A stretch of DNA of 64,000 nt, taken from the NCBI GenBank assembly GCA_018262975.1, contig JADFDG010000020.1, positions 1 to 64,000 of the forward strand, given 5' to 3'. Within the stretch, counting starts at the first letter, position 1. Each line of letters starts with the position of its first letter. Source of the stretch: Gammaproteobacteria bacterium (GTDB taxonomy: Bacteria; Pseudomonadota; Gammaproteobacteria; Pseudomonadales; JADFDG01). This document shows positions 35,553 to 52,253 of the stretch, piece by piece. A model generated the notes under the pieces. It ran no database searches and was not told the DNA's origin. It saw only the letters and a program-made list of their open reading frames with translations. The translations under genes were made by a program, and so were the position numbers.

Positions 35553-37328
35553 TTAACCCACGCTGGCAAGGAACTGCCGCCAGCCGCCCAGCGCGGTGAT
35601 GTCACGCGCGCCGGCGGCGGCACAGCCCTCGCCGATGAAGCCTTTGACCTGTCGCCCATCGTCCAGCTCGACCGTACCGATGCCCAGCGGCGCGGGGATC
35701 AGTTGCACGAAGTCCCCCCAGCGATCCGCCGGCAGCGACCAGCGTTCCGCGTCGATCGAACCGCCGCGCTCGCCGGGGGCCACGCGCACCAGTGCGGGAC
35801 GGAACGGTGGCCCCCCGGGCAAGGCATAGAAGCGGTAGCACGGCGCGGTGCGCACCGCTTCGCGGAAGATCGCGCCGCGGCCGGTGAGTTGGCCGTTGAG
35901 CGGCAAGCCGGACATGTGTGCGCCGCACACCAGGATGTCGATGCGCGCGACGTCGTCGCTGACCGCGGGCATCGCGGCACCGGACAGCGCCGGGAACAGT
36001 TGCGCCGCCAGCGCCAGCAAACGCGCATCGCTGCCATGATCGGCAAACAGCGTCACACCCGCCGGCACGCCACTGGCGTGGGCGCCGTGCGGTACGGCCA
36101 GCGCGGCCAGGTCGAGCAGGTTCATGAAATTCGTGTAATAGCCCAGCTCGCTGTTCAGTTGCACCGGGTTGGCCTCAACCTGCGCACGCGTGAAATGCGT
36201 GCCGATGGTGGGCGTGAGTATCGCGGTGACCGAAGCCAGCGTCGGTTCCACTGCCCGGCGCAACGCGGCCAGCCGGTACATGGCGGCAAACGCGTCGGCT
36301 GCCGCGAGGTGCTCGCCACCACCGATGATGGCGCGCGTCACCGGCAGCAGCGCATCCGGCTGCGTCGCCAGCAGGTCCTTCGCCACCAGGTAGCGCTCCG
36401 CCACCCACGGCCCCTCGTACAGCAACTGCGCTGCTTCCACGAAAGGCAGGAAATCGATCTCGACGATATCCGCGCCGATGCCTGCCTGTGCGACTGCCGC
36501 CGCGAACAGCGCCCGGGCCTCGGCATTGCCGAAGAAAGCCAGCTGGTCGTCGCGCGGCACCCCGATCACCGGTCGCGCAGGCAGCGTGGCATCCAGTGGC
36601 AGCGCGCGACTCCACGGGTCGAGCGGGTCGTGACGGCGCAGCAACGGCAGGAGCAGCGCCGCGTCGGCGAGGTCACGCGTGAACAGGCTGACGCAGTCGA
36701 GCGAACGACAGGCCGGCACCACGCCACGGGTGCTGAGCAAACCACGCGACAGCTTGACGCCGACCAGGCCGTTGAGCGCCGCCGGCACGCGTCCGGAACC
36801 GGCGGTGTCGGTGCCCAGCGCGAAGGCGACCTGGCCGAGCGCCAGTGCCACCGCCGAACCGGAGCTGGAACCACCGCTGATCACTGCCGGCACATACGCG
36901 TTCTGCACCTCTCCATACGGCGAGCGCGTGCCGACCAGGCCGGTGGCGAACTGGTCGAGGTTGGTCTTGCCGACGACGATGGCGCCGGCCGCGCGCAGGG
37001 CCGCCACCACCGGCGCGTCGGCATGCGCCATGCGCGCGAAGGCCGGGCAGGCCGCGGTGGTCGGCATGCCGCCAACATCGATGTTGTCCTTCACCGCGAA
37101 CGGGATCCCCCACAGCGGGTGGCTGGCCGGATCGAGCGCCCGCAGCCGATCGAATTCACGCGCCAGCGCGAGGTCGTCCGCCACCGTGATCCACACCGGA
37201 TTGCCGGCATGGCGGGCGATGCGTGCGCGCACCGTCGCAAACACCGCCTCGAGACTGGTGGCATCGGACAGGTAACCGTCACGCAACGCGGCGACGGTGA
37301 ACGGGATGGGAAAGTCATCGTTGCTCAT
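35553..37328 (-). CDS. atzF: Allophanate hydrolase
   Basis: 591-residue amidase-signature enzyme that hydrolyses allophanate to ammonia and CO2, the last step of the pathway here. The amidase triad is visible: Lys in F-A-V-K-D-N-I-D, and the two serines in S-G-G-S-S-S-G-S-A-V-A-L and D-T-A-G-S-G-R-V-P-A. The C-terminal ~150 residues (after ~440) match the AtzF C-terminal domain. The carboxylase stop lies just upstream: a GTG at 37340 overlaps it (GTGA), while the ATG at 37328, with TGAGG six bases upstream, is my choice. Last gene of the riboswitch-controlled operon. Confidence 0.92.
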   Translation of the reverse strand: MSNDDFPIPFTVAALRDGYLSDATSLEAVFATVRARIARHAGNPVWITVADDLALAREFDRLRALDPASHPLWGIPFAVKDNIDVGGMPTTAACPAFARMAHADAPVVAALRAAGAIVVGKTNLDQFATGLVGTRSPYGEVQNAYVPAVISGGSSSGSAVALALGQVAFALGTDTAGSGRVPAALNGLVGVKLSRGLLSTRGVVPACRSLDCVSLFTRDLADAALLLPLLRRHDPLDPWSRALPLDATLPARPVIGVPRDDQLAFFGNAEARALFAAAVAQAGIGADIVEIDFLPFVEAAQLLYEGPWVAERYLVAKDLLATQPDALLPVTRAIIGGGEHLAAADAFAAMYRLAALRRAVEPTLASVTAILTPTIGTHFTRAQVEANPVQLNSELGYYTNFMNLLDLAALAVPHGAHASGVPAGVTLFADHGSDARLLALAAQLFPALSGAAMPAVSDDVARIDILVCGAHMSGLPLNGQLTGRGAIFREAVRTAPCYRFYALPGGPPFRPALVRVAPGERGGSIDAERWSLPADRWGDFVQLIPAPLGIGTVELDDGRQVKGFIGEGCAAAGARDITALGGWRQFLASVG

Positions 37329-37336
37329 GAGGTACC

Positions 37337-40300
37337 TCACAGGTACTCACCCACGGCGAGCGGCGTGCCCGGCTGCACCTGCGCACCGGGCGACACCAGT
37401 ACGCGCTTGACGCGCAGCCGTCGCGGACTGGCGACGGGGATTTCCATCTTCATGGACTCGACGATGACCACCGGCATGCCGTCGTCCAGCACGTCGCCGG
37501 CCTTCGCGGCCACTTGCCAGACGCTGCCGGGCACGTGCGACTGCAACAGCACTTCGTTGTCCTGCAGTTGCACGTCGAGGTCTTCGCCGGTCTCCGCTTC
37601 CAGCGGCAGCATCAGGTCGCCGTGCCCGGCGCTGCGCCAGCGCTCGCGCTCGGCGTCGAAAGCCGCTTGCTGCACCTGCTTGAAGGCATCGATGCCGGCG
37701 GCATTCTCCGCGAGGAAGCCGTTGTACTCGCGCAGGCTGAATGTGGATTCCTCGATACGCAGCGAATAACCGCCGCGGGGGAACGCCTCGCGCATGTCGA
37801 GCAGCTCCTCGCCGCTGACCGGGAAGAAACGCACCTTGTCGAAGAAGCGCAGCAGCCACGGCTCGCTGAACTCCGGCGTCTTGCGCCAGCGGTTCCACAT
37901 CTGCACGGTGCGGCCGACGAACTGGTAGCCACCCGGCCCTTCCATGCCATACACGCACATGTAGGAACCGCCAATGCCCACGGCGTTCTCCGGCGTCCAG
38001 GTGCGCGCAGGGTTGTACTTGGTGGTGACCAGCCGGTGGCGCGGGTCCATCGGCGTGGCCACCGGCGCACCGAGGTAGACGTCGCCCAGGCCCATGACCA
38101 GGTAGTCCGCGCCGAACACGATGCGCTTCACCGCTTCCTCGTCGGCCAGGCCGTTGATGCGGCGGATGAACTCGATGTTCGACGGGCACCACGGCGCGTC
38201 CTTGCGCACCGATTGCATGTACTTCTCGATGGCCAGGCGCGTCTGCGGGTCGTCCCAGGACAGAGGCAACCAGACGGTGCGGGCCGGGACCGACATGTCC
38301 GCGATGCCGGCCAGCTCGCCTTCCGCACGGACCAGGATGTCCATGAGGCGCGAACGCGGCAGCCGCTTGCTGTCGTAGTGCACCTGCAGGGAGCGGATGC
38401 CCGGCGTCAGGTCGATGATGCCGTCGATGCGCGCCGCCTTCAGCCACTGCCACAGCGCGTGCACGCGGAAGCGCAGGTTGATATCAAGCACCAGCGGCCC
38501 GTACTCCACCAGCAGGTACCTGTCGCCCGCGGCGCGCCAGGTCACGCCGACCGGGTGCTCGCGCTCGCCGATGACGCGGATGATTGCCGGCGCGCGCAAC
38601 GGCTCGACGCGCGGCGGCGCCGGCGCGCGCAGGTCGCGGATCATGTCGTCCTGGGCCGCCTCGATCGCCACGGCAATCTCCGGTGCCACGGGCACGAAAC
38701 TGACCTTGTCACCCGGGCGCAACTGGCCGAGTTTCCAGCGGTCGGCGGCAATCACCGTGGCCGGGCAGACGAAGCCGCCGAGCGACGGGCCGTCCGGGCC
38801 GAGGATCACCGGCATGTCGCCGGTGAAATCCACTGCACCGATGGCGTAGGCGTTGTCATGGATGTTCGACGGGTGCAGCCCTGCCTCCCCGCCGTCGGCG
38901 CGTGCCCACTGCGGTTTCGGACCGATCAGGCGCACGCCGGTACGCGACGAGTTGTAGTGCACTTCCCAGTCGGTGGCGAAGAATGTCTCGATGTCGCCGT
39001 CGGTGAAGAAGTCCGGCGCGCCGTGTGGACCGTACAGGCAGCGCAGTTGCCAGTGGTTGCCGATTACCGGACGCAATTTTTCAGGCAGCGCCAGCGGCGC
39101 GCAGGGCTGCGCGACGGCGGCGAGGTGCAACACGTCACCGACGCGCAGCGTGCGCCCGCCGTGGCCGCCGAACTGCCCGAGGGTGAACGTGGACTTGCTG
39201 CCCAGGTAATCGGGCACCTGGATGCCGCCCTGCACGCACAGGAAAGCACGCGCACCGGTGCTGCCGGCGCGGCCGATGCGCAGCACGCCGCCAGCGGGAA
39301 TCCGCACGGTTTCCCACCAGGGCACTGGCCGTTCGTCGAGGGTGGCCGGGAGGTGTGCACCGGCCAGCACGATGGTCGCCGCCGTACGGAAGCGAAGGGT
39401 CGGGCCGTTGAGCGTGATCTCCAGGCCTGCTGCCCTGGTGTCGTTGCCAAGCAGGCGGTTGCCGAGGCGGAAGGCCAGGTCATCGAACGGCCCCGACGGC
39501 GGGACGCCCACGTCCCAGTAGCCCTGCCGGCCAGGGAAATCCTGCACTGTCGTGTGGGTGCCGCCCTCGAGGACGTCGATGGTCAATGGGTGGTAATCAA
39601 AGCCGTTCAGGTAGCGGGTCGTCATGTCGCCGCGCAGGAACACCGCGTCGTCGCACAACTGGCGCAGGTAGGCGCGGTTGGTCTCGATCCCCGCCACCGC
39701 GGTTGCATCGAGTGCCGTGGCCAGTGCTCGGATGGCACCCTCGCGATCGTCGGCGCAGGCAATCACCTTGGCCAGCATCGGGTCGTAGAACGGCGGTACC
39801 GTGAGGCCGGCCTCGATCCAGTGGTCGATGCGCAGCGACGCGCCATCCGCCGGCGGGAATGCGACGTGGGTGAGCAGGCCTGACTGGGGCCGGAAGTCCT
39901 TGCCAGGATCCTCCGCGTACAGGCGCGCCTGCACCGCATGGCCGCGCGGTTGCACGCGGATGCTCTCCAGTGGTGGCAACTCGCCGGCCGCTTGCAGCAG
40001 CATCAGCTCGACAATGTCGATGCCGGTGACCATCTCGGTGACGCCATGCTCCACCTGCAGGCGGGTGTTCACCTCGAGGAAATAGAAGGCCTCCGTCTGC
40101 GCGTCGTAGATGAACTCCACGGTGCCGGCGTTGGCGTAGTTGACCGCCGCCGCCAGCCGCACCGCAGTCGCGTGCAGGTCGGCGCGCACCGCGTCGGACA
40201 GCCCCGGCGCCGGGGTTTCCTCGATGACCTTCTGATTACGGCGCTGCAGCGAGCAGTCGCGCTCGCCGAGGGCGATCACCCCGCCCCGGCCGTCGCCGAA

Positions 40301-40936
40301 TACCTGCACCTCGACGTGGCGCGCCCGCTCGATGTACTTCTCGAGGAACAGCCCGGCATTGCCGAAGTTGTTGCGCGACAGTCGCTGCACGGACTCGAAC
40401 GCGGCCGCCAGATCGGCGGCGTCGCGGCAAACCTGCATGCCGATGCCACCGCCACCGGCGGTGCTCTTGAGCATCACCGGGTAACCGATGTCTCCAGCCG
40501 CCGCAATCGCCGCGTCGACGTCGTCGAGCAGACCGGTGCCCGGCGACAGCGGAATGCCGTTGGCGGTGGCCAGTGCGCGTGCCTCGTGCTTAAGTCCGAA
40601 CGCGCGTACGTGTTCAGGGCGCGGACCAACGAAGGCAATACCGCGGGCGGCGCAGGCCGCGGCAAACTCCGTGTTCTCGGAGAGGAAGCCGTAGCCGGGG
40701 TGGATGGCATCCACGCCCAGACGCACCGCGACTTCGAGGATGCGATCACCCTTCAGGTAGGAGTCCGCCGCGGGACCCTCGCCGATGCACTCGGCATGGT
40801 CGGCCAGCCGCACGTGCAGCGAATCGGCATCGGCGCGCGTATAGACCACCACCGGTGAGATGCCCAGCCGGCGCAGGGTTCGGATGATGCGAACCGCGAT
40901 GGCACCGCGGTTGGCAATCAGTACTTTCTTGAACAT
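37337..40936 (-). CDS. Biotin-dependent guanidine (urea-type) carboxylase
   Basis: 1199-residue multidomain carboxylase. In order: biotin carboxylase/ATP-grasp (~1-450; V-L-I-A-N-R-G-A-I-A, K-S-T-A-G-G-G-G-I-G-M), CT_A_B (AHS2/KipA-like, ~460-790; T-V-Q-D-F-P-G-R), CT_C_D (AHS1/KipI-like, ~800-1000), and a C-terminal biotinyl domain with V-E-S-M-K-M-E-I-P. Such proteins were long named urea carboxylase; those under guanidine-I riboswitches with DUF1989 neighbours have been shown to carboxylate guanidine. The motif G-A-V-D-F-T-G-D lies in the CT region where an Asp/Asn difference may separate the two activities (from memory; needs alignment). The ATG at 40936 is preceded by AGGAG. Confidence 0.9.
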   Translation of the reverse strand: MFKKVLIANRGAIAVRIIRTLRRLGISPVVVYTRADADSLHVRLADHAECIGEGPAADSYLKGDRILEVAVRLGVDAIHPGYGFLSENTEFAAACAARGIAFVGPRPEHVRAFGLKHEARALATANGIPLSPGTGLLDDVDAAIAAAGDIGYPVMLKSTAGGGGIGMQVCRDAADLAAAFESVQRLSRNNFGNAGLFLEKYIERARHVEVQVFGDGRGGVIALGERDCSLQRRNQKVIEETPAPGLSDAVRADLHATAVRLAAAVNYANAGTVEFIYDAQTEAFYFLEVNTRLQVEHGVTEMVTGIDIVELMLLQAAGELPPLESIRVQPRGHAVQARLYAEDPGKDFRPQSGLLTHVAFPPADGASLRIDHWIEAGLTVPPFYDPMLAKVIACADDREGAIRALATALDATAVAGIETNRAYLRQLCDDAVFLRGDMTTRYLNGFDYHPLTIDVLEGGTHTTVQDFPGRQGYWDVGVPPSGPFDDLAFRLGNRLLGNDTRAAGLEITLNGPTLRFRTAATIVLAGAHLPATLDERPVPWWETVRIPAGGVLRIGRAGSTGARAFLCVQGGIQVPDYLGSKSTFTLGQFGGHGGRTLRVGDVLHLAAVAQPCAPLALPEKLRPVIGNHWQLRCLYGPHGAPDFFTDGDIETFFATDWEVHYNSSRTGVRLIGPKPQWARADGGEAGLHPSNIHDNAYAIGAVDFTGDMPVILGPDGPSLGGFVCPATVIAADRWKLGQLRPGDKVSFVPVAPEIAVAIEAAQDDMIRDLRAPAPPRVEPLRAPAIIRVIGEREHPVGVTWRAAGDRYLLVEYGPLVLDINLRFRVHALWQWLKAARIDGIIDLTPGIRSLQVHYDSKRLPRSRLMDILVRAEGELAGIADMSVPARTVWLPLSWDDPQTRLAIEKYMQSVRKDAPWCPSNIEFIRRINGLADEEAVKRIVFGADYLVMGLGDVYLGAPVATPMDPRHRLVTTKYNPARTWTPENAVGIGGSYMCVYGMEGPGGYQFVGRTVQMWNRWRKTPEFSEPWLLRFFDKVRFFPVSGEELLDMREAFPRGGYSLRIEESTFSLREYNGFLAENAAGIDAFKQVQQAAFDAERERWRSAGHGDLMLPLEAETGEDLDVQLQDNEVLLQSHVPGSVWQVAAKAGDVLDDGMPVVIVESMKMEIPVASPRRLRVKRVLVSPGAQVQPGTPLAVGEYL

Positions 40937-41015: not shown

Positions 41016-41654
41016 TCAATCCCAGACCACGACCTCGATCGGCGTGGGGTTGTAGGCATTGCACGGATTGTTGAGTTGCGGACAATTCGACAGCAGCACG
41101 ATCACGTCCATCAACGCCGTCAGCTCCACGTACTTGCCCGGGCCGGAGACGCCGTCGGCAAAGGTGAGCCCGCCATCGGGCGTCACCGGCACGTTCATGA
41201 AGAAATTGATGTTGTGGGTGATATCTCGCTTGTCCAGGCCGTATTCATCATGCTCGGTAACCGCCAGCAGGTAGCTGTCGCGACAGGCGTGCATGCACTT
41301 CTTTTCCAGCGCGTAGCGCACGGTGTTGCTCTCGGTGGCACAGGCGCCGCCCAGCGTGTCGTGGCGCCCGCAGGTGTCGGCGACGACTTCCAGCATCGGC
41401 CGGCCGGCGGTCGAATACAGGCACGTGCCGGTACCGATATAGAGATTCGCCTGGCGCTGGATGGTGTCGACGGCGCTGTAACGCTCGACCGGGTTGGCGG
41501 CACTGTAGAACAGCGTGTCGGCGGCCTGGTTTCCTTCCACGTCGACGAAGCGCAGCGTCTGGCCCGCCTTGAGTACGTGCATCCAGTAGTCGCCGGCCTC
41601 GACCAGCTGGCGGTACACGGCATCACGCGGATCACGGGAACTTTCACGCAGCAT
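41016..41654 (-). CDS. DUF1989 protein, carboxyguanidine deiminase subunit (CgdA/CgdB family)
   Basis: 212-residue DUF1989 ('urea carboxylase-associated') protein. Conserved features: [12 protein letters not shown] (~41-52), [11 protein letters not shown] (~76-86), [11 protein letters not shown] (~94-104) and [10 protein letters not shown] (~149-158). In guanidine operons, two DUF1989 proteins form the heterodimer that converts carboxyguanidine to allophanate, removing one ammonia. It follows the second DUF1989 gene by 1 bp and precedes the carboxylase by 79 bp. Which of the two is CgdA and which CgdB is not resolved here. Confidence 0.87.
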
Positions 41655-41655
41655 G

Positions 41656-42396
41656 TCAGTGGCCCCCGCAGCCGGCTGCAGAACAGCCGGCGAGATACAG
41701 GCGATTGTTCAGCAGCCCGCGGCTGTTCTCCGCGCGCGCCAGCACCCGCGGATCGTCGGCCGAGGACCGTGGCGTAGCGAGGATCTCGTAGCGCACCGGT
41801 CGCGCCGGATATGCCTGCGCGACATCCAGCGGGTGCGGCGCGGCGTGCATCACCACCAGCGTGTCCATCTCGAAGCACAGTTCCACGGAGGCGCCCGCCG
41901 GCGCCTTGCCGGCCAGTCGCAGGTTGCCCTGCGCATCGGCCGACACCCGGCTGAACCAGTTGAGGTTGGCGGCGAGATCGCGCTTGCCCATGCCGTGCTT
42001 GGCCAGCTCCACCAGGAAGCCGTCACGGCCGTTGCGGTGCATGCCGTTGCGCGCCTGCTGGTAGGTCAGTCGTCCCCAGCGGGACTCGACCAGTGCGCGG
42101 TCACAGGTCCCGCACACGCTGTCGTGCCAGCCGAAGTCGTCGCGGGCAATGCTGCAGAACACCCGGCCCATGTCCGAGTAAAGGCAATGGCCGGCCGTCA
42201 GACGGAACGTATGCTGGCACTTGAGCGTATCGGGGATGTTCAGCCGCTCGAGGTGATCGAGCGGGTTGTACAGGAGCATGCCCACGTTGGCGCCGCCCTG
42301 GACATCGGTCAGGCGCAGCAGATGGCCGCGCGGCATCAGCAGCGACCAGTGGCAGCCGGCGCCCAGCGTATCGGCATACAGCAGTTCATCGTTCAT
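41656..42396 (-). CDS. DUF1989 protein, second carboxyguanidine deiminase subunit
   Basis: 246-residue paralog of the preceding DUF1989 protein. The shared core is visible: [12 protein letters not shown] (~33-44), [12 protein letters not shown] (~69-80), H-D-S-V-C-G-T-C (~92-99) and N-L-N-W-F-S-R-V (~148-155). Pairing of two divergent copies fits a heteromeric enzyme in which one subunit carries the active site. The start overlaps the stop of the ABC ATPase by four bases (ATGA), so it is translated with the transporter. The C-terminus ends in a Cys/Gly-rich [11 protein letters not shown]. Confidence 0.87.
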
Positions 42397-43142
42397 GGAT
42401 CGGTCCTGAGCGGCAGGTCGTAGGTAATGCGCGCGCCGTAGCGTTGCGGCGCCTGCGGGTCGTTGCGCACGCGATCGAACACCAACAGCCGTGAACCAAG
42501 GCTGAAGCCTTCCTCGATGTCGTGGGTGACCATGAACACCGTGAAGCGATGGCGCTGCCACAGCGACTTCATCAGCGCGTGCATGTCGGCGCGGATGCCG
42601 GGATCCAGCGCACCGAAGGGCTCGTCGAGCAACAGGATCTTCGGCTGCGCCACCAGCGACTGCGCCAGCGCCAGGCGCTGCTGCATGCCGCCGGAGAGCT
42701 CGTGCGGATACTTGCCGGCGCTGTCGGCCAGGCCGACCGCCTCCAGCATCGCCATCGCCCGCTCGTCGGCAGCACGCCGACGCGCGCCAAACAGGCGGGC
42801 GAGCAACGGAGCGCCACTCACCTCGAGAAACAGGCGGGTATTCGCCAGTGCGGTCAGGTGCGGAAACACCGAGTAGCGCTGGAACACCACGCCGCGGTCG
42901 GCACCGGGCTCCTGCGGCCAGGGCTTGCCGTCCAGCAGCATCTCGCCGCGACTCGGTTGCTCCTCGCCGAGCAGCATGCGGAAGAAGGTGGTCTTGCCGC
43001 ACCCGGAAGCACCGACGATGGACACGAACTCACCGGCATGGACGTCCAGCGACAGGTTCTCCAGCACCACGCGTTCGCCGTAGGACTTCCACAACCTGCG
43101 GATGCTGATCTGCGGCGCCGCGGCCGTCATGGCGACACTCAT
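42393..43142 (-). CDS. ABC transporter ATPase, guanidine uptake
   Basis: 249-residue ATPase of the nitrate/sulfonate/taurine-type importer group. Walker A is G-A-S-G-C-G-K-T-T (~40-48), the ABC signature L-S-G-G-M-Q-Q-R-L-A (~137-146), Walker B I-L-L-L-D-E-P-F-G-A-L (~158-168), and the switch His is in V-T-H-D-I-E-E-G. It overlaps the permease stop by four bases and the next gene by four, so permease, ATPase and DUF1989 subunit are a coupled block. The guanidine assignment comes from the upstream riboswitch and downstream enzymes. Confidence 0.9.
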   Translation of the reverse strand: MSVAMTAAAPQISIRRLWKSYGERVVLENLSLDVHAGEFVSIVGASGCGKTTFFRMLLGEEQPSRGEMLLDGKPWPQEPGADRGVVFQRYSVFPHLTALANTRLFLEVSGAPLLARLFGARRRAADERAMAMLEAVGLADSAGKYPHELSGGMQQRLALAQSLVAQPKILLLDEPFGALDPGIRADMHALMKSLWQRHRFTVFMVTHDIEEGFSLGSRLLVFDRVRNDPQAPQRYGARITYDLPLRTDP

Positions 43143-43972: not shown

Positions 43973-44016
43973 GGGAAGGTCCGCGTTGCGGATGCGGGGA
44001 AAACGACGTGGCGCAT
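43969..44016 (-). CDS. Possible 15-codon leader peptide upstream of the permease
   Basis: ATG at 44016 with GGAGG six bases upstream opens a 15-codon frame (MRHVVFPASATRTFP) whose TGA overlaps the GTG of the permease (GTGA at 43972-43969). It lies between the guanidine-I riboswitch and the permease. The arrangement suggests a translated leader that couples the permease to the riboswitch-accessible ribosome binding site. It might instead be a chance frame, or mark a frameshift relative to the ancestral permease start. Confidence 0.4.
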   Translation of the reverse strand: MRHVVFPASATRTFP

Positions 44017-44081
44017 GCAAGACCTCCGGTGAACGACAAGGGCACGACGGGAAACGCGAAAGGCGTGACTCCAGCGCCTTC

Positions 44082-44567: not shown

Positions 44568-45587
44568 ATGCCGCGTTTCAAACATGCCGACGCACGCCTG
44601 CCCAACTTGCTGGCCTTCAGTTACGCCTTTGGCGGTGTTGCCCTGGGCTTCTGGCTGATTACCCGCACCAGCCCCGCCGGTAACGCCGCCGGCGTGCTGC
44701 TGCTGGGCCACGCCATGACCATTGCCGCCTACCTCGTGCACGAATGCGCACACAACACGCTGTTCACCACCAACGAGGCCAACGCCCGACTGGGCCGCAC
44801 TCTGCTGTGGCTTTGCGGTGGGTGTTACGCGACCTACGAGGACATCCGCCACAAGCACTTCCGCCACCATGTCGACCGCGGCGACGTGGTGGCATTCGAT
44901 TACCGCCCGCAACTGGCACGTCACCCGCACGCGGTGAAGTTCCTGCATGCCCTCGAATGGGCGTGGATCCCGGCCTTCGACCTGCTCATGCACCTGCTGG
45001 TGATCGTGCTGCCCTTCACCTGGGCGCCGCGCCGGCATCGCCGCGCGCACGTGCTCGCAGTGCTGGCGATACGGGTGCCGCTGTTCGCGCTGCTGGCCTG
45101 GCATGCGCCGCGCGTGCTGCTGCTCTACCCGCTGGCGTACCTGCTGATGCTGCACGTGCTGCGCTTCATGGATGCTTTCCAGCACACCTACGAGGTGGAT
45201 GACCGCCTCGAGCAGCCGCGGCCCGCGCAGCCCCCCTACGACGCCGCCTACGAACACCGCAACACCTTCACCAACCTGCACTCCACCCGCCACCCGTGGC
45301 TGAACCTGCTGACCCTCAATTTCGGCTACCACAACGTCCACCATGACCGCCCCAACCAGCCCTGGCACCGCCTGCCGGCGCTGCAGCGCGAGCTGTACGG
45401 CGACGGTGACGACCCCACCGGCCAGGGGCTGGCGCTGGCCAACCAGTGGCACGCCTATCGCCGCTACCGCACGGCACGGCTGCTCAATGCCGACCCCGCG
45501 GACATGGGCCTGGAAAAAATCCCGTATGCCGAACGCGGCCGCGATTTCATCGGGGTCGACGGCGTGTCATTCCTGGTAACCCACTGA
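44568..45587 (+). CDS. Membrane fatty acid desaturase/hydroxylase family protein
   Basis: 339-residue membrane diiron enzyme. Three histidine boxes are visible: H-E-C-A-H (~60-64), H-K-H-F-R-H-H (~97-103) and H-N-V-H-H-D-R-P (~259-266), plus Q-H-T-Y (~206). Four to five hydrophobic spans surround them (~12-28, 41-60, 138-158, 168-196). The family desaturates or hydroxylates acyl chains and related hydrophobic substrates. The ATG at 44568 gives a protein beginning just before the first span; a ribosome binding site is weak. First of four tightly spaced genes (9, 9 and 5 bp gaps). Confidence 0.87.
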   Translation: MPRFKHADARLPNLLAFSYAFGGVALGFWLITRTSPAGNAAGVLLLGHAMTIAAYLVHECAHNTLFTTNEANARLGRTLLWLCGGCYATYEDIRHKHFRHHVDRGDVVAFDYRPQLARHPHAVKFLHALEWAWIPAFDLLMHLLVIVLPFTWAPRRHRRAHVLAVLAIRVPLFALLAWHAPRVLLLYPLAYLLMLHVLRFMDAFQHTYEVDDRLEQPRPAQPPYDAAYEHRNTFTNLHSTRHPWLNLLTLNFGYHNVHHDRPNQPWHRLPALQRELYGDGDDPTGQGLALANQWHAYRRYRTARLLNADPADMGLEKIPYAERGRDFIGVDGVSFLVTH

Positions 45588-45596
45588 GTACCCGCC

Positions 45597-46394
45597 GTGA
45601 CCGACGTGAAGAGATTCTGGCCATTGCTGCTGGGCACGCACCGCTACGACAAGTCGTTGTCCACCCGCGACACCGGCACAGGTACGCTGATCGAGGCACC
45701 GATCCTCGCCTACCTCATCGAGACCCGCCATGGGCGCATCCTCTACGACGTCGGCTGCGACCACCGCAAGGTGGACGACCCGGCATTGCGTGCGCGTTTC
45801 TATGAAACACCGGAGTTCGCCTTCGGCCCGCCGACCGTGACCCCCGAACAACGCATGCCGGCACGCCTGGCGCAACTCGGCCTTTCACCGGCCGACGTTG
45901 ACTGCATCGTCTGCGGACACCTGCACTTCGACCACGCCGGCGGCCTGCACGAATTTGCCCACGCCGAAGTGCACGTGCACGAGTGCGAACTCGCCGCTGC
46001 GCGCGAACCGGCGGACAGCGCCTACTTCGGCAGCGACTTCCTCGTCGACCAGGGCAGCCACCCGGTGAACTGGTGCGTGCAGGCTCACGAATTCAGCCTG
46101 TGCGACGGAGTGCATGCGATCGAGACGCCCGGACATACCGCCGGTCACCTGTCGCTACTGGTCAGGTTGCCGCGCGGCGCACCGGTGCTGTTGTGCGGCG
46201 ACGCCGCCGACCTGGTGGAAAACCTGCGCGACGAAGTGCCGCCCGGACTGTGCTGGCAGGAGCGCACCGACCTGGCGCTGGGCAGCATCCGCAAGCTCAA
46301 GAAACTGGCGATCCATGAAGGCGCCGACCTGTGGCCAAACCACGACATGGACTTCTTCCGGGCCCGCAACCGCTTTCCGCTGCCCTGGCAGTAA
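45597..46394 (+). CDS. Metallo-beta-lactamase-fold hydrolase, AHL-lactonase-like
   Basis: 265-residue dinuclear zinc hydrolase. The motif H108-L-H110-F-D112-H113-A-G-G, His180 in P-G-H-T-A-G-H, Asp202 in C-G-D-A-A-D and a late His in W-P-N-H-D-M match the metal ligands of N-acyl-homoserine lactonases (HxHxDH ... H ... D ... H). No LuxI/LuxR quorum-sensing pair is in the window, so the lactone or ester hydrolysed may be a product of the neighbouring desaturase. Starts at GTG 45597, 9 bp after the desaturase stop. Confidence 0.85.
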   Translation: MTDVKRFWPLLLGTHRYDKSLSTRDTGTGTLIEAPILAYLIETRHGRILYDVGCDHRKVDDPALRARFYETPEFAFGPPTVTPEQRMPARLAQLGLSPADVDCIVCGHLHFDHAGGLHEFAHAEVHVHECELAAAREPADSAYFGSDFLVDQGSHPVNWCVQAHEFSLCDGVHAIETPGHTAGHLSLLVRLPRGAPVLLCGDAADLVENLRDEVPPGLCWQERTDLALGSIRKLKKLAIHEGADLWPNHDMDFFRARNRFPLPWQ

Positions 46395-46403
46395 GGACCG
46401 ACC

Positions 46404-47264
46404 ATGGAACTGCACCTGTACCGCACCCTGTGGGGCGCCACCGGCGACATCGACGCGATCGCCGCCGAAGCGGCTGCCGCCGGCTTCCACGGTCTCGAGG
46501 GGCAGGTCCCGGAAACCGAGGCCGCTCGCCGGCAGCTGCGCGATGCGCTGCAGCGCCACGGACTTTCCTACATCGCCGAAGTCACCACCGCCGGCAGCTA
46601 CGTGCCGGCGCGCCGCGCCAGCGTCGATGACCACCTGATATCGCTGGCGCAGCGGCTGGCATGGGCACGCGAACTCGGGCCCGAATTCATCACCTGTATC
46701 GGCGGGTGCGATGCCTGGCCATTCACCGCATCGCTGCGCTTCTTCCGCGAAGCGATGGCACTGGCCGATCGCGACGACATCACCATCAGCTTCGAAACCC
46801 ACCGCGCACGCTCGTTGTTCAACCCGTGGATAACACTCGACTTCGCGCGGGCCATGCCGCAGATGCGCTTCACTTTCGACTTCAGCCACTGGTGCGTGGT
46901 ATGCGAACGCCTGCTGGACAGCGAACTGGACATCCTCGCCCTGCTGGCGCCACAGGCCCACCACGTCCACGCGCGGGTCGGCTACGACCAGGGACCGCAG
47001 GTGCCGCACCCCGGTGCCCCGGAATACGCCGAGGCGCTGCGCGCGCACCAGCACTGGTGGGAAATGTTGTGGAGCGCGATGGCGCAGCGCGGCCGCCAGG
47101 TGATGACCATGACGCCCGAGTTCGGCCCCGACGGCTACCTGCACGAGATTCCCTTCTCGCGTATCCCCGTGGGCGACCTGTGGGAGATCAATCGCTGGAT
47201 GGCCGACAGCGAACGCGCGCATTTCGAACGCTGGCGTGAGGCGCAGGCGCGCCGCAGCGCCTGA
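46404..47264 (+). CDS. Sugar phosphate isomerase/epimerase-like TIM barrel protein
   Basis: 286-residue protein of the xylose-isomerase-like TIM-barrel superfamily. Metal-ligand candidates: E in I-S-F-E-T-H-R (~132), D and H in F-D-F-S-H-W (~153-156), H in H-V-H-A-R-V (~186) and E in M-T-P-E-F-G-P (~237). These positions match the E-D/H-H-E metal set of the superfamily. Members are isomerases, epimerases, dehydratases or endonuclease IV relatives, and the substrate cannot be told. Start ATG 46404 with TAAGGA upstream. Confidence 0.8.
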   Translation: MELHLYRTLWGATGDIDAIAAEAAAAGFHGLEGQVPETEAARRQLRDALQRHGLSYIAEVTTAGSYVPARRASVDDHLISLAQRLAWARELGPEFITCIGGCDAWPFTASLRFFREAMALADRDDITISFETHRARSLFNPWITLDFARAMPQMRFTFDFSHWCVVCERLLDSELDILALLAPQAHHVHARVGYDQGPQVPHPGAPEYAEALRAHQHWWEMLWSAMAQRGRQVMTMTPEFGPDGYLHEIPFSRIPVGDLWEINRWMADSERAHFERWREAQARRSA

Positions 47265-47269
47265 ACCGG

Positions 47270-48187
47270 ATGACAGCCATGCCCCGTCAACGCAACGCCG
47301 TGCCGGTCCTGTTCGCCGCCTCCGTGCTGTGGGGTTGCACCTGGTGGCCGCTGAAGGAGGTGGCGGTACTGGGGCTGGAAGGCTTGCCGCAGATCCTGGT
47401 GTCCTACGGCGGCATGGCGCTGCTGATGCTGCCGTTCCTCTTCCTGCAATGGCGTCGCTGCCAGGGCGACGGCCGCGCACTGGCCGGCATCTTCCTGCTG
47501 GGCGGGCTGGCCAACCTGAGTTTTGCCTGGGCACTGATCCACGGCGAGGTGGTCCGCGTGATGGCGCTGTTCTACCTGCTGCCGGTGTGGGGCGTGCTGG
47601 GCGGGCGGATCTTCCTTGGCGAGCGCATCGACACGCAACGTGCACTGGCCGTGGCGCTGGCGCTGGGCGGGGCCTTCCTCATCCTCGGCGGGCCGCAGTT
47701 GCTGAGCCACCCGCCGTCATGGGTGGATGCCGTCGCCATCGCCTCCGGGTTCTTCTTCGCCATGAACAACCTGTGCTTCCGCGCGGCCCAGCGCGCACCG
47801 GTGCCGGCCAAGGTGGCGGTGATGTTCCTCGGCTGCGGCGTGTTCGCCCTGGCGCTGATCGCGGGCGGCGTGCAGGCGCTGCCCGCGACCTTGCCGGCCA
47901 GCGCGTGGCTGGCCGCACTCGCCACCGGCCTGCTGCTGCTGGCCGCCACCAGCGGCTCGCAGTACGGCGTCACCCACCTGGAAGCCGGGCGTGCCTCGGT
48001 GATCATCATCATGGAACTGGTCACCGCGGTCATCACCGCCGCCTGGTGGGCCGGCGAGACCCTTTCCGCCATCGAGTGGCTGGGCGGCGCACTGATCCTT
48101 GCGGCCGCCCTGCTGGAAGCGTGGCGGCCGGCTACGGCAACAGGCCCAGCTGGTTCGCCTTCAGCGCCGCTTCCGCACGCGAGGTGA
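47270..48187 (+). CDS. DMT/EamA-family transporter
   Basis: 305-residue membrane protein with ten predicted spans in two EamA repeats (~10-140 and ~155-290). The N-terminal W-G-C-T-W-W-P-L-K-E (~25-34) is typical of drug/metabolite exporters. As last gene of the desaturase-lactonase-isomerase operon (5 bp after the TIM-barrel gene), it may export or import the compound handled by that cluster. Its last 56 bp overlap the response regulator gene on the opposite strand. Confidence 0.88.
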   Translation: MTAMPRQRNAVPVLFAASVLWGCTWWPLKEVAVLGLEGLPQILVSYGGMALLMLPFLFLQWRRCQGDGRALAGIFLLGGLANLSFAWALIHGEVVRVMALFYLLPVWGVLGGRIFLGERIDTQRALAVALALGGAFLILGGPQLLSHPPSWVDAVAIASGFFFAMNNLCFRAAQRAPVPAKVAVMFLGCGVFALALIAGGVQALPATLPASAWLAALATGLLLLAATSGSQYGVTHLEAGRASVIIIMELVTAVITAAWWAGETLSAIEWLGGALILAAALLEAWRPATATGPAGSPSAPLPHAR

Positions 48188-48767
48188 TGTTCAGCTTGCG
48201 GTAGATCGACTTCACGTAATCGGATGCGGTGTGCGGACTGATGCCCATGGTCTGCGCCAGCGACTTCACCGACACGCCGCGCGCCAGCAGCGCCAGCGCC
48301 TCCTGCTCGCGCACGCTCAGGCGATGCTCGGCGGGCGCCTTGAGCGCCGGTGCCTGGAAATGATGGATCAGCTTGCGCGCAATCGCCGGCGACAACGGCG
48401 GCACGCCGTCGATCATGCCGGTCAGCTGGCGCAACAGCGCATCGCGCGGCTCGTCCTTCAGCAGGTAGCCGTGCGCCCCCGCCTGCAGGGCCGGAAACAG
48501 GTGGCCGTCGTCGCCGTAGATGCTGCTCACCACGATGCGCGCCTGCGGGCAGCCCGCATTGAGCGTGGCGATCACGTCGATGCCATTGCCGTCGGGCAGG
48601 TGCAGGTCGACCAGCGCCAGGTCCCAGGCGCGGCTGCGCGCCAGCACCTGGGCCTCCGCCGCGGTCGCCGCCCCGCTCACCCTCGCTTGCGGGAATGCCT
48701 CGCGGACGATACCGGCCAGCAGCTCCTGCGCATCCGGGTGGTCCTCGACGATCAGTATCTCGCGCAT
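48132..48767 (-). CDS. LuxR/NarL-family response regulator
   Basis: 211-residue two-component regulator. The receiver domain (~1-120) has E8-D9, the phospho-acceptor Asp54 in L-A-L-V-D-L-H-L-P-D-G and Lys in Y-L-L-K-D-E (~106). The C-terminal LuxR helix-turn-helix includes L-S-V-R-E-Q-E-A-L-A-L-L-A-R-G (~145-159) and T-A-S-D-Y-V-K-S-I-Y-R-K-L. The ATG at 48767 has AGGAG in the end of the kinase gene, 5 bp upstream. The target is unknown; the convergent EamA operon is a candidate only by position. Confidence 0.92.
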   Translation of the reverse strand: MREILIVEDHPDAQELLAGIVREAFPQARVSGAATAAEAQVLARSRAWDLALVDLHLPDGNGIDVIATLNAGCPQARIVVSSIYGDDGHLFPALQAGAHGYLLKDEPRDALLRQLTGMIDGVPPLSPAIARKLIHHFQAPALKAPAEHRLSVREQEALALLARGVSVKSLAQTMGISPHTASDYVKSIYRKLNITSRAEAALKANQLGLLP

Positions 48768-48772
48768 GACCT

Positions 48773-50593
48773 TCACTCCTCTTCCCGGCCATCCAGCGCC
48801 GCCAGCGGCAACGCGCACTGCAGGCAGGTGCCGCACTTGTTGCCATCGGGACCCTGCAGGTCCTCCCAGTGAAGGGTTGCCCCGATCTGCGCGGCACGCA
48901 TCTGCAGGTTACGCACGCCCACGCCGGCCTTCCACTGCGCGAACGGCGCGGACGATGCTTCGTCCTCCACCTCGATGCGCAACCGTTCGCCGGTCGACTG
49001 GATGCGTACCCTCACCCGCGTGCTCTGCGTGTGCTTCAGGATGTTGGTGACCGCCTCGCGCAGGACCCGGCCCAGCGTGATCTTCTGCCGCGTGCCGAGG
49101 CGCATGGCCGGCAGATCGCCGGACTGCCAGTCGAGCTCGCGGCCGGCGGCCTCGCAGCGCTGGCCGATTTCCGCGCGCCAGTCCGACACAGCCTCGTCGA
49201 GCATGCCCTCGGGGGTGTTCAGGTGGCCGATGAGGATGCGCAGGTCGGACAGCGCCTCGCGCGCCGATTCGCTGGCTTTCTCGTCCTGCGAGCGGTGCAC
49301 CAGCGTCAACAGGCGCGCCCCGAGATCATCGTGGAGGTCGCGGGCAATCCGCTCTCGCTCGTCCCGGGCGGCCCGCTCCTTCTGCAGTTGCACGGCCTGC
49401 GCATAGCTGTCCTCGATCTCGCGGGTGACCAGGCGGACGCGCTGCTCCATTTCAGCGCGCGCGTTCTCCGCAACGGTAAGCGCCTCGGCGTGACGCGACA
49501 GCAGGCGGACCATGAAGGCCAGCAGCAATACCGGCATGACCACTTGCAGCAGCGGGCGGTCGACATAGGTGAGCACGCGCAACTGCACCAGGTAATCGTG
49601 CAACCCGGTGGCCATGATCACCAGCGCCGCCACGTAGAAGCCGCGCTGCACGCCACCGGCGCGGTGCATGGCGCTGAGCGACAGGACCAGCGTCACGCCC
49701 ACCGTCAGCGCACCCAGGCCGTAGGCAAACTGGGCAACCGTCGCCAGCATGCCGGACGGCACTACCAGCAAGGCACCGATGGCAACGATGCAGGCCTGCA
49801 GGCAGGTGTGGTAAAGCCGCGTGCGCAATCCACCCAGCGAGCCGAGGCTGCCGACAATGCCCAGGCAGATCAACACCGCCACCACCGGCACCAGGCGCTC
49901 GACCAGCAGGTTGTCCAGGCCGGGAACGGTGATGAACACCCGGGCGGTACCCAGCGCCGACGCCGCCATGGTCAGGCCGAAAAACCCGTAGACCGGTTCG
50001 CGCCGGTAACGCCACCAGAGCAACAGCAGCATGAAACCGGCGAAGCCCATCAACGCGCAGGTCACGCGTGGCAAGGTGATGCGGATCAAGTACTCGCGCT
50101 GCTGCACCACCTGCAGGGACTGCCAGCTGTCGAGCACCACCGGCGACAGGTGGCCCTTGCGCTGCTCGCTGGTCAGCGAGGCCGCAGCCTCGCTGTGCAG
50201 GCGGACCAGCAACTCGTTGGCGCCGGGGCGCTGGGCATCGCGGGGCCAGGCAGCCAGTACCGGGAAATAGCAGTTACGGTGGACGCGCGGGCCCTCCAGC
50301 GGGCCTCCGCCGCTGTAGATCAACTGGCCGTTGGCATAGATCCAGACATTGTTGCAGGCGCGTTTGAGGAACACGCCAAGCAGTTCCCGGGGCTGGTCGA
50401 TGTCGACCCGCAGCCGGTACCAGGTGGCGCCGGACAGGTCAGGCCGCGAATCGCTCCAGTGATCGGGCAGCACCACCGGCTGCCAGCGGCCGTCAACGAG
50501 TACCTCGCCACGGAGCAACTCCGCAGCATGGGTGGACTGCGCCCACCACAGCAGGCCGCACAGACCGGCGCACAACCACCACCACCTGTTCAT
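48773..50593 (-). CDS. 7TM sensor histidine kinase (HisKA_3 type)
   Basis: 606-residue sensor kinase. It starts with a signal/anchor segment (W-W-W-L-C-A-G-L-C-G-L-L-W-W), then a ~160-residue extracytoplasmic jelly-roll-like domain (W-Y-R-L-R-V-D-I region) and seven hydrophobic spans (~185-385), the 7TMR-DISM layout. A short coiled coil leads to the HisKA_3 dimerisation motif E-R-E-R-I-A-R-D-L-H-D-D-L-G-A-R (phospho-His within D-L-H-D-D) and a HATPase domain with R-E-A-V-T-N-I-L-K-H and G-V-G-V-R-N-L. It partners the response regulator 5 bp downstream. The jelly-roll domain often binds carbohydrates, so the signal may be extracellular. ATG 50593 is used instead of an upstream start with no signal. 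Confidence 0.9.
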   Translation of the reverse strand: MNRWWWLCAGLCGLLWWAQSTHAAELLRGEVLVDGRWQPVVLPDHWSDSRPDLSGATWYRLRVDIDQPRELLGVFLKRACNNVWIYANGQLIYSGGGPLEGPRVHRNCYFPVLAAWPRDAQRPGANELLVRLHSEAAASLTSEQRKGHLSPVVLDSWQSLQVVQQREYLIRITLPRVTCALMGFAGFMLLLLWWRYRREPVYGFFGLTMAASALGTARVFITVPGLDNLLVERLVPVVAVLICLGIVGSLGSLGGLRTRLYHTCLQACIVAIGALLVVPSGMLATVAQFAYGLGALTVGVTLVLSLSAMHRAGGVQRGFYVAALVIMATGLHDYLVQLRVLTYVDRPLLQVVMPVLLLAFMVRLLSRHAEALTVAENARAEMEQRVRLVTREIEDSYAQAVQLQKERAARDERERIARDLHDDLGARLLTLVHRSQDEKASESAREALSDLRILIGHLNTPEGMLDEAVSDWRAEIGQRCEAAGRELDWQSGDLPAMRLGTRQKITLGRVLREAVTNILKHTQSTRVRVRIQSTGERLRIEVEDEASSAPFAQWKAGVGVRNLQMRAAQIGATLHWEDLQGPDGNKCGTCLQCALPLAALDGREEE

Positions 50594-50997
50594 CGCGCTC
50601 CCGGTCCGTCCCACCCACTGCCGGCGGCAACCGGCGGCTGCACAGTCAACGGCATCGCGGGCACGCTAGCAAGCCAGCGGCATGCGCAGAATCCCGCGAA
50701 CGGGGGGATGACCCGGACAACCGCGCGGCGTCGGCTGCAGGCAAAAAAAAGCGCCCTTCCCGGGCGCCCTTTCCGCTGCTTGCTCCGTCCCTGTCCGGTT
50801 GCATGAACCGTTGCGTGGCACGCCCCGGGGCGCAAGGCCCCTGAGCCGGCACTCGCCCGCGCCGCACCTCCTGTGCCCGCGGGCCGGCATGCCACGCCGA
50901 TCTCCGTAATACCGCCACCTTGCCCTGAACCCGTTAAGGTTTCATTACGCAGTTGCCGCGCTGCCGACGCGCGGCACCCGCAGGGGCGACCGGCGGC
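50594..50997. other. Intergenic region between kinase and solute-binding protein genes
   Basis: About 400 bp, both flanking genes leftward. It contains the intrinsic terminator of the upstream solute-binding protein gene (50743-50767) and should contain the kinase promoter to its left. The rest (~50770-50990) is GC-rich with no gene, tRNA or repeat that I can support. Confidence 0.45.
50743..50767 (-). terminator. Intrinsic terminator of the guanidine-binding protein gene
   Basis: Reading leftward: GCGCCC, a 5-base loop, GGGCGC, then eight T. This perfect G/C stem followed by an unbroken T-tract is a rho-independent terminator. It lies ~230 bp after the stop of the solute-binding protein gene, and separates that unit from the two-component genes. 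Confidence 0.85.
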
Positions 50998-52092
50998 CTA
51001 CAACTTGCCGTCCATCGCCATCTTCACGTAGCTGGCGTCGTAGCGCAGCTTGATGTTCTTCGGGTTGCCCAGCACCTTGCCGTTCGGGAAGCTGATGCCC
51101 ACGGCATCGACACTGGTGGCGCCCTGCCCCAGCAGGCCCTTGTCGAAGCTGAACTTGCGCACCTTGTCCATGCCGCTGACCAGCGCCGGCGCCACGGTGA
51201 AGTCGTACGCGGCTTTCGGCGTGTAGAACAGCATGGTCGCCTTGAGTTGCGCCTCGTAGCCGGCCAGGTCCGTGCCGGACAGCTTCGCCATCATTTCCTT
51301 GGCGGCCTTCGCCTTCGCATCGCCCTTGCTCATGATCGCCAGCGTCTCGAACCAGGCACCCACCAGCGCCTTGCCGAAGGCCGGGTTGTCCTTGAGCACC
51401 TGCGTGTTGACCATCGCCATGTCGAGGATCTCGCCGGGGATCTTCGAGGAGTCGTACACCAGGAAGGTGTTCGGCTGTTTCATCATGGTCGCCAGCTGCG
51501 GGTTCCAGGCCGCAGCGGCCGTCACCCCCGGGGTGCCCCAGGCGGCCACGATGTCGGCGTCGGAGGTGTTCACCACCTTCACGTCGCGCTCGCTCATGCC
51601 CACCGACTCCAGCGCGCGCGCCAGGAAGTAGTGCGACACGGACAGCTCCAGCAGGTTCACCTTCTGGCCCTTGATGTCCTTCAGCGACTTCTTGCCCTTC
51701 AGCACCAGGCCGTCGTTGCCGTTGGAGTAGTCGCCGACGATCAGCGCCGTGGTGTCCACGCCGCCGGCCGCCGGGATGGTCAGGGCGTCCATGTTGGTCA
51801 TCAGGCAGGCGTCGAACTGGCCGGCCGTGTACTGGTTGATCGACTCGATGTAGTCGACCTGCTTCACGTCGATGGTGATGCCGTACTTGTCGGCCCACTT
51901 CTTGATGATCCCGCTCTGGGCGGCATACGGCCACGGCATCCAGCCGGCGTACACGCTCCAGGCGAGGCGGAAGTTCTTCTTGGGCGCTGCCTGCGCCTGG
52001 CCGGCGCTGAACGCCAGCAGCAGGCAGGCCGCGAGGGCAACGGTGAACAGGCGGGCCAGCGGGAGGGACGCCGGTCGGGTGGTCGCGGTCAT
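50998..52092 (-). CDS. Periplasmic solute-binding protein, guanidine ABC transporter
   Basis: 364-residue binding protein of the NMT1/TauA-like group found beside urea/guanidine carboxylases. Start ATG 52092 gives a Sec signal (L-F-T-V-A-L-A-A-C-L-L-L-A-F-S-A-G-Q-A-Q-A, cleavage after ~A36). The mature part includes L-A-W-S-V-Y-A-G-W-M-P-W-P-Y-A (~44-58) and the D-A-C-L-M-T-N-M-D-A-L loop, both typical of that group. It completes the permease and ATPase encoded 8 kb to the left, but has its own guanidine-I riboswitch 50 bp upstream and its own terminator, so it is an independent unit. GAGGAC serves as ribosome binding site. Confidence 0.9.
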   Translation of the reverse strand: MTATTRPASLPLARLFTVALAACLLLAFSAGQAQAAPKKNFRLAWSVYAGWMPWPYAAQSGIIKKWADKYGITIDVKQVDYIESINQYTAGQFDACLMTNMDALTIPAAGGVDTTALIVGDYSNGNDGLVLKGKKSLKDIKGQKVNLLELSVSHYFLARALESVGMSERDVKVVNTSDADIVAAWGTPGVTAAAAWNPQLATMMKQPNTFLVYDSSKIPGEILDMAMVNTQVLKDNPAFGKALVGAWFETLAIMSKGDAKAKAAKEMMAKLSGTDLAGYEAQLKATMLFYTPKAAYDFTVAPALVSGMDKVRKFSFDKGLLGQGATSVDAVGISFPNGKVLGNPKNIKLRYDASYVKMAMDGKL

Positions 52093-52141
52093 GGATCTGT
52101 CCTCAAGGGGAATGGGTAAGGCACCTGCCGACACGTTCGCG

Positions 52142-52253
52142 GATCTCCCGGGCTTTTATCCCTCCGTGCAACCCGCCCTCCCGGCGGGCCGGCGACTCTC
52201 GGACCTGGCGCCTGCCCCATGGGTGGAGGTCGGCCGGAACCCTAGTCGCCTGG
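52142..52253 (-). ncRNA. Guanidine-I (ykkC) riboswitch upstream of the binding protein
   Basis: Second copy of the ykkC motif, reading leftward: CTAGGGTTCCG (~52244-52234), AGGTCCGAGAG (~52205-52195), and ACGGAGGGATAAAAGCCCGG then GAGA (to 52143). Stem sequences differ from the copy at 44.1 kb, whereas the ligand-binding blocks are identical, which supports a maintained, functional RNA. About 50 nt separate it from the start codon, with no T-run terminator, so translational control is likely. Confidence 0.93.

Follow-up and report, generated by a model that had tools for sequence, protein, structure and literature searches.

Operons for the use of guanidine as a nitrogen source are known from Raoultella, Erwinia and Klebsiella, where a Guanidine-I (Gd-I) riboswitch stands at the operon head and a Guanidine-II (Gd-II) riboswitch before the guanidine carboxylase gene, gca (PMC12186494). 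The same layout occurs in Vreelandella boliviensis, whose Gd-II riboswitch binds both guanidine and methylguanidine while its Gd-I riboswitch binds guanidine only. That operon has the order gca-mgdH-mgdL-atzF and encodes the demethylation of methylguanidine to guanidine and formaldehyde: hydroxylation by MgdH yields a hemiaminal that persists with a half-life of over 1 h, and its cleavage by MgdL relies on the reported catalytic residues D49 and R51 (PMC12508155). Here we describe a 64,000-nucleotide stretch of a Gammaproteobacteria bacterium (GCA_018262975.1, contig JADFDG010000020.1), called the window below. It holds a guanidine operon of this known kind and, divergent from it, a four-gene operon encoding a membrane FA_desaturase-family protein (DES), a metallo-beta-lactamase-fold hydrolase (MBL), a xylose-isomerase-like TIM barrel (TIM) and an EamA transporter. 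We lean slightly toward the view that DES and TIM represent a second, independently evolved release of guanidine from N-substituted guanidines, in which a riboswitch-controlled membrane di-iron oxygenase acts with a TIM-barrel lyase and the oxygenase and lyase parts are interchangeable across Proteobacteria.

The divergent operon is preceded by a Gd-II match (Table 1) that consists of two perfect 5-bp hairpins with ACGA and ACGG loops, followed by GGAA and, 14 nt past the match, by the ATG start codon of DES. Its counterpart between cgdB and gca is followed by AGGAG and then by the carboxylase ATG. Both elements place two ACGR-loop hairpins shortly before a start codon, and both pass the strict two-hairpin motif defined below. 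The next-best RF01068 match in the genome scores 22.6 bits. Judged by its sequence, the element before DES is very probably a genuine Gd-II riboswitch.

Table 1. Riboswitch matches and genes of the two guanidine-linked arms, in window coordinates.
Feature	Position	Strand	Match or context
Gd-I riboswitch 1	44192-44083	-	RF00442, 84.6 bits (gathering 63); heads importer/cgd/gca operon
Gd-I riboswitch 2	52256-52143	-	RF00442, 82.1 bits (gathering 63); before binding protein gene
Gd-II riboswitch 1	40998-40950	-	RF01068, 37.1 bits (gathering 32); in 79-nt cgdB-gca gap
Gd-II riboswitch 2 (sub-threshold)	44509-44553	+	RF01068, 27.9 bits, genome E 0.0017; before divergent operon
DES, membrane FA_desaturase family (di-iron type)	44568-45587	+	PF00487, 5.3e-31, 108.7 bits (cut-off 29.7)
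MBL, metallo-beta-lactamase-fold lactonase-like hydrolase	45597-46394	+	PF00753
TIM, xylose-isomerase-like TIM barrel (AP_endonuc_2)	46404-47264	+	PF01261
EamA (DMT) transporter, proposed exporter	47270-48187	+	PF00892
ABC permease of guanidine importer	43139-44020	-	NCBIfam TauC/NtrB-like matches below their cut-offs
ABC ATPase of guanidine importer	42393-43142	-	NCBIfam ABC ATPase matches
CgdA, carboxyguanidine deiminase subunit (DUF1989, UAAP1)	41656-42396	-	TIGR03425, 303 bits, above cut-off
CgdB, carboxyguanidine deiminase subunit (DUF1989, UAAP2)	41016-41654	-	TIGR03424, 331 bits, above cut-off
Guanidine carboxylase gca (annotated urea carboxylase)	37337-40936	-	TIGR02712, 1832 bits (cut-off 1304)
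Allophanate hydrolase AtzF	35553-37340	-	TIGR02713, 724 bits (cut-off 511)
Periplasmic binding protein of importer	50998-52134	-	TIGR03427 ('urea' ABC binding protein), 551 bits (cut-off 334)

The strict motif requires two GGACGRCC hairpins with at least four pairs each and at least nine pairs in all. Its 37 matches in 76 sources (1.27 Mb) lie before gca (20), a 2OG (2-oxoglutarate/Fe(II)) oxygenase gene (9), DES (7) or cgdA (1, in L123), and nowhere else. No match was obtained with seven decoy loops, in reversed sequences or in five resampled sets. Because the 76 sources were picked for holding such genes, these counts speak to position and not to genome-wide frequency. Less biased are the 29 Gd-II loci of relatives (L011-L039), of which 16 precede gca, three cgdA and two DES (G058, G004); the remaining eight matched no probe. 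The bare pattern GGACGRCC-N14-44-GGACGRCC was tried as a genome-wide test and rejected: 81 of 229 genomes match it, and its backwards control is far commoner in many of them (in the window's own genome, 43 matches vs 4). Since the control is the more frequent, a genome-wide match to the pattern without stems carries no weight as evidence, and the stems have to be demanded as well. In the 76 chosen sources the stemless form occurs at 39 places, compared with 37 for the strict motif.

The DES protein carries the three-histidine-box pattern typical of membrane di-iron enzymes. Its His62, 97, 100, 101, 206, 255, 258 and 259 are invariant in 36 of 36 sequences, and His58 is present in 35. A search of the PDB with the sequence returned just three chance-level matches (E about 0.9). 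The AlphaFold2 model (predicted local distance difference test, pLDDT, 94.1) has the alkane hydroxylase AlkB as its best enzyme fold (8f6t, Z 11.2, root-mean-square deviation (rmsd) 4.7 over 248 residues) and SCD1 as the next (4ymk, Z 6.1, rmsd 5.8, 189 residues); above both rank chains from the Orf2971-FtsHi and Ycf2-FtsHi complexes (Z 18.3 and 17.9). For TIM there is no PDB sequence match at E <= 1e-2, and its model (pLDDT 88.5) resembles ketose 3-epimerases (Z 21.6, rmsd 2.8, 252 residues), IolE and the DgpB-DgpC complex (Z 19.5). DgpC is a carbon-glycoside-cleaving enzyme, and lyase chemistry is thus known in this fold. The invariant residues of TIM (Glu131, Asp159, His162, His187, His189, Arg191 and Glu239) are of a kind that could form a metal site. 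MBL matches AiiA and 4-pyridoxolactonase models, both below their NCBIfam cut-offs.

Of 293 same-order genomes, 20 (the window's own included) have relatives of DES, and relatives also occur at 17 named loci; with L063 and the G091 locus counted once (apparently the same contig, judging by equal length and gene positions), this gives 36 distinct DES loci including the window. An Rfam Gd-II match lies directly before DES in nine of these, above the Rfam cut-off in L060, L061, L062, L065 and L090 and below it in the window, L063, L093 and L095. The DES operons of L080 and L081 are headed by Gd-I riboswitches instead, and in L064 and L068 the sequence begins at the DES gene, which leaves its upstream region out of view. 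On the DES tree the Gd-II-preceded genes occupy two places, one with the window and the other with L090, L093 and L095. L093 and L095 have the one-strand order importer, Gd-II, DES, TIM, cgdA, cgdB, gca, atzF. Two additional genes stand ahead of the Gd-II element in L093, and cgd or gca genes fall within the fetched stretch of eight of the 36 loci (window, L060, L061, L062, L063, L069, L093 and L095). Among the 293 genomes the carboxylase (E <= 1e-200) is present in 15 of 20 with DES vs 69 of 273 without (Fisher odds ratio 8.9, p = 1.1e-5, uncorrected for relatedness). We are highly confident that DES and TIM are part of guanidine metabolism.

The surroundings of DES vary. Among the 35 other loci, 13 have a full TIM gene, three a piece of one (L064 and L090 at a contig end, L095 as a 72-residue fragment), four an MgdL-like gene and three a distant TIM-like gene only (L088, L091, L092). 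MBL relatives occur in nine other DES loci and stand directly behind DES in seven of them (L063, L064, L065, L067, L068, L069 and L070); EamA relatives are found in 11 of the 36, creatininase genes in L080, L081 and L093, and SDR and isochorismatase genes are also among the neighbors. Several individual loci have features of their own. The two additional genes of L093 (6738-8875, plus strand) encode creatininase and glutamine-synthetase-like proteins and lie between the importer and the Gd-II/DES/TIM/cgd/gca genes in one apparent operon. The TIM fragment of L095 (8517-8732, minus strand; G004) sits between DES and cgdA. L062 has a third Gd-II match (6926-6973, minus strand, 31.3 bits) before cgdA, absent from a second scan's listing, and perhaps carries three class II riboswitches and one class I riboswitch in one locus. 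A search of the plasmid collection with DES found one record, a cyanobacterial gene at 32%. This relative lies beside genes annotated as ectoine synthase, GNAT, tryptophan halogenase and HpaB (L099, region 5884-12195); the surroundings resemble a biosynthetic cluster, and the DES family may therefore serve other chemistry too.

Partners are exchanged between DES and the 2OG oxygenase. A search of 398 genomes of the phylum gave nine TIM matches at E <= 1e-35, of which three adjoin DES (window, G042, G059) and six adjoin a 2OG oxygenase gene (in G056 with a binding-protein gene between); all six TIM loci without DES thus have the 2OG enzyme. Six plasmid records also matched TIM (tblastn), and in the three inspected (Paraburkholderia, Kozakia, Klebsiella) a 2OG oxygenase gene lies directly behind TIM. 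The Paraburkholderia pair is flanked by a Gd-I-headed binding-protein/MBL unit, with the MBL relative about 2 kb away, and by a cgdA-cgdB-gca-atzF operon under Gd-I and Gd-II control. Glyoxylate reductase and class II aldolase genes are annotated near the Klebsiella and Kozakia clusters, the latter of which also has an arginine-deiminase-family gene. The Klebsiella cluster lies in L096 (CP125156.1), a record filed as a plasmid that is probably a mislabelled chromosome, given its 5.37 Mb.

The 2OG enzyme (query P0015) belongs to the ethylene-forming enzyme/isopenicillin N synthase (EFE/IPNS) family and occurs at 16 places in 15 of the 293 genomes (E <= 1e-80). Six of these places are beside TIM, one gene away in G056, and ten are beside a protein of about 225-335 residues with an invariant Asp-Leu-Arg. 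The strict Gd-II motif lies upstream in nine of the ten (L119, L129-L135, L137), and the tenth (L128) is directly behind gca. In G072 the order is gca, 2OG oxygenase, gene for this protein, and the motif residues number D49 and R51; because both features match the V. boliviensis operon (PMC12508155), we read the pair as relatives of MgdH and MgdL. Membership of the oxygenase in the MgdH family and homology of its partner to MgdL are probable. A second, diverged MgdL-like gene is present at G072:C1:4011610-4012245 (E 9.6e-40).

MgdL-like genes also accompany DES in four loci without TIM: L069 and L070 (both Acidocella), L080 and L081. Their products are 31-34% identical to that of G072 and keep the Asp-Leu-Arg. 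The genes are on the same strand within a Gd-I-headed cluster in L080 and L081, and on the other strand about 2-4 kb off in L069 and L070. All four pairings (2OG-MgdL, 2OG-TIM, DES-TIM and DES-MgdL) are therefore observed. The window's genome has no 2OG match to P0015 at E <= 1e-80 and no match to profile A3 of the MgdL-like proteins at E <= 1e-6; since neither defining family is found at these limits, the DES/TIM pair is not a member of the MgdH/MgdL system. The V. boliviensis order, with mgdH and mgdL between gca and atzF, was not found in 20 fetched carboxylase loci, of which eight have atzF behind gca (gap 3-60 nt), one has it before gca and 11 show no atzF in the fetched stretch. The 2OG gene is present in one of the 20 (L119).

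The minus-strand genes belong to a familiar type of locus for the assimilation of guanidine nitrogen, and the pathway, including the Gd-I plus internal Gd-II layout, is established knowledge (PMC12186494, PMC12508155); we accordingly rejected this layout as a novelty. The original prediction, made from the sequence alone, had proposed two Gd-I riboswitches, and both RF00442 matches are indeed far above the gathering score and cover the full aptamer (model positions 1-107 of 107), with no further match at E 0.001 in the 3.3-Mb genome. It had placed the transporter and the carboxylase operon under their control. The first does head a unit of ATP-binding cassette (ABC) permease, ABC ATPase, cgdA, cgdB, gca and atzF genes, while the second heads the binding protein alone, as a separate unit. 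One terminator is found near the second Gd-I site, upstream of the aptamer, and promoter and terminator scans around both sites gave nothing usable. The permease, whose homologues sit at the same place in related loci, may start at TTG 44020 or at GTG about 43972; translation of the binding protein may actually begin not at its GTG but at an in-frame ATG downstream. The carboxylase likely starts at 40936, where the protein begins MFKKVLIANRG, rather than at the listed open reading frame start of 41059.

The same prediction held that the 'urea carboxylase' of standard annotation, as TIGR02712 is indeed named, acts on guanidine. A phmmer alignment with K. lactis urea amidolyase (5i8i) and with 3va7, read with residues counted by eye, pairs Asp703 (GAVDFTGD) with K. 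lactis Asn1330 (GAINFTGD), and the other signature residue, the Asp of GLGDV (K. lactis 1584), is retained. Guanidine and urea carboxylases differ by Asp vs Asn at K. lactis 1330, with Asp1584 also required (PMC11410670, PMC12186494), and the placement of CgdA and CgdB on a tree serves as a further criterion in the former. Asp at both positions argues for guanidine, and not urea, as the substrate. The DUF1989 pair and allophanate hydrolase are together in the operon as claimed, all above their model cut-offs. This sequence evidence supports a guanidine carboxylase, and the parts of the pathway from uptake to ammonia are complete as had been stated. What the earlier reading overlooked are the two Gd-II riboswitches and the guanidine-linked oxygenase operon (44509-48187).

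These data are probably best explained by a guanidine-responsive nitrogen-scavenging island with two arms. In the first, the binding protein and ABC permease/ATPase would import guanidine, the biotin- and ATP-dependent carboxylase would convert it to carboxyguanidine, CgdAB would deiminate this to allophanate, and AtzF would hydrolyze allophanate to ammonia and CO2. The class I riboswitches at the head of both minus-strand units would respond to guanidine and the class II element would gate carboxylase translation. In the second arm the other class II riboswitch is predicted to turn on the DES operon. DES would then hydroxylate the carbon on the guanidino nitrogen of an N-substituted guanidine, TIM could cleave the stable N-(1-hydroxyalkyl)guanidine to guanidine and an aldehyde, and MBL and EamA might process or export the leftover carbon piece. 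The guanidine released in this way would feed the first arm. If DES can replace an MgdH-like 2OG oxygenase and TIM can replace MgdL, an oxygenase followed by a lyase is the simplest reading, and we consider such a release of guanidine by DES and TIM probable. Methylguanidine is the first candidate substrate, although we would name it as the main one only tentatively. The reactions and substrate of the second arm and the direction of regulation are what we infer here; gene content, motifs, linkage and partner exchange are direct observations.

Several observations weigh against this proposal. The Gd-II element before DES falls short of the Rfam gathering score of 32, both Gd-II regions fold no better than shuffled sequences (z 1.37 and -0.96) with no sign of sequestration of the Shine-Dalgarno sequence, and the terminator scan found no canonical terminator after the first Gd-I riboswitch. 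Among the 34 DES loci with visible upstream sequence, 25 have no Gd-II match there, and five of the 20 same-order DES genomes lack a carboxylase at E <= 1e-200. No TIM, MgdL-like or distant TIM-like gene is present in the fetched stretch of 12 of the 35 other DES loci (L063, L066, L067, L071-L076, L086, L087 and L089), some of which are short contigs. Mutual exclusion of DES and the 2OG oxygenase was considered but does not hold at the genome level: of 293 genomes 20 have DES and 15 the 2OG enzyme, and both occur in G093 and G177. The assignment of the 2OG enzyme to the MgdH family draws on gene order, size and motif. On the 2OG tree, MgdL-partnered and TIM-partnered enzymes are mostly in separate clades, and in several TIM-2OG clusters the ABC transporters are different ones and the fetched stretch lacks gca; TIM may therefore act on a different guanidino substrate. 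MBL, EamA and the creatininase of L080, L081 and L093 would be superfluous for methylguanidine, and these neighbors, together with SDR and isochorismatase, suggest that some clusters may handle larger guanidino compounds.

The last point leads to the most substantial alternative, that DES, TIM and MBL degrade a guanidino acid or a cyclic, creatinine-like guanidino compound rather than methylguanidine (guanidinoacetate, for example, to glyoxylate), with MBL or creatininase opening the ring and EamA exporting the carbon piece. The recurrence of MBL behind DES and near the Paraburkholderia TIM-2OG pair, the three loci with creatininase, and the glyoxylate reductase, aldolase and arginine-deiminase-family genes of the plasmid clusters all fit such a substrate. 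Most of the 36 DES loci nevertheless lack MBL, most lack creatininase, and in four loci DES is accompanied by an MgdL-like gene whose characterized counterpart acts on N-(hydroxymethyl)guanidine, so that we regard a larger substrate as rather unlikely, if well worth keeping in mind.

Two further readings assign DES a role outside guanidine release, and both seem very improbable. An ordinary lipid desaturase of PF00487 might remodel the membrane when the denaturant guanidine accumulates, and a guanidine riboswitch would induce it under that stress. Yet DES lies within assimilation operons, between the importer and cgdAB in L093 and L095, a 2OG/Fe(II) oxygenase substitutes for it beside the same TIM partner, its model resembles AlkB with SCD1 well behind, and the sole listed NCBIfam lipid desaturase model gives it 22 bits vs a cut-off of 500. 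DES might equally hydroxylate or otherwise detoxify guanidine itself for export by EamA, as a protective and not a feeding module. Guanidine-linked control and the EamA relatives would accord with this, but guanidine is assimilated by the same locus, and no EamA relative is seen in 25 of the 36 DES loci, several of which have an importer instead. That the locus serves urea, as the annotation of its carboxylase suggests, is scarcely credible: Asp703 stands at the Asn1330 position, on which we rejected this reading, and CgdAB and four guanidine riboswitch matches are present.

Between the EamA and binding-protein genes (48132-50614, minus strand) are a NarL-type response regulator and a sensor histidine kinase. 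The kinase has no tblastn match at E 1e-6 in L060-L095 and looks lineage-specific.

The guanidine literature has yet to settle the natural origin of the compound (PMC12186494), and the module predicts an enzymatic source that starts from substituted guanidines. For an unnamed clade of proteins labelled 'fatty acid desaturases' and 'xylose isomerases' it would also supply a function. If the proposal is true, one metabolic step is carried out with either of two unrelated oxygenases and either of two unrelated lyases, in all four combinations. No description of a DES/TIM operon under Gd-II control was found in the open-access literature, with subscription papers outside the search, and in the papers inspected for the word 'desaturase' it meant NapI.

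Compared with described systems, DES has the fold and histidine boxes of AlkB and SCD1 but only 13-14% identity to them, another gene neighborhood and another proposed substrate. Rhizopine catabolism likewise places an FA_desaturase-family demethylase beside a TIM-barrel protein (mocD/mocC), with O-methyl inosamine as the substrate. Ethylene-forming enzyme and other 2OG oxygenases free guanidine from arginine (PMC11018352) by hydroxylation next to the guanidino nitrogen, and the EFE/IPNS family also includes the 2OG enzyme with which DES interchanges; DES, in contrast, is of an unrelated family, and 5-hydroxyarginine decays without a lyase. The assimilation arm shares with the Raoultella, Erwinia, Klebsiella and V. 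boliviensis operons the importer, cgdA, cgdB, Gd-II, gca and atzF and the same riboswitch classes in the same places (PMC12186494, PMC12508155), but its binding protein is split off under its own Gd-I riboswitch and an extra divergent Gd-II operon with DES, MBL, TIM and EamA is added. Like MgdH and MgdL of V. boliviensis (PMC12508155), DES and TIM are an oxygenase and partner linked to gca and guanidine riboswitches. Unlike them, the oxygenase is a membrane FA_desaturase-family protein and not a 2OG/Fe(II) enzyme, and the partner is a TIM barrel and not the MgdL beta-barrel, and we propose by analogy that DES and TIM may do through unrelated proteins what MgdH and MgdL do.

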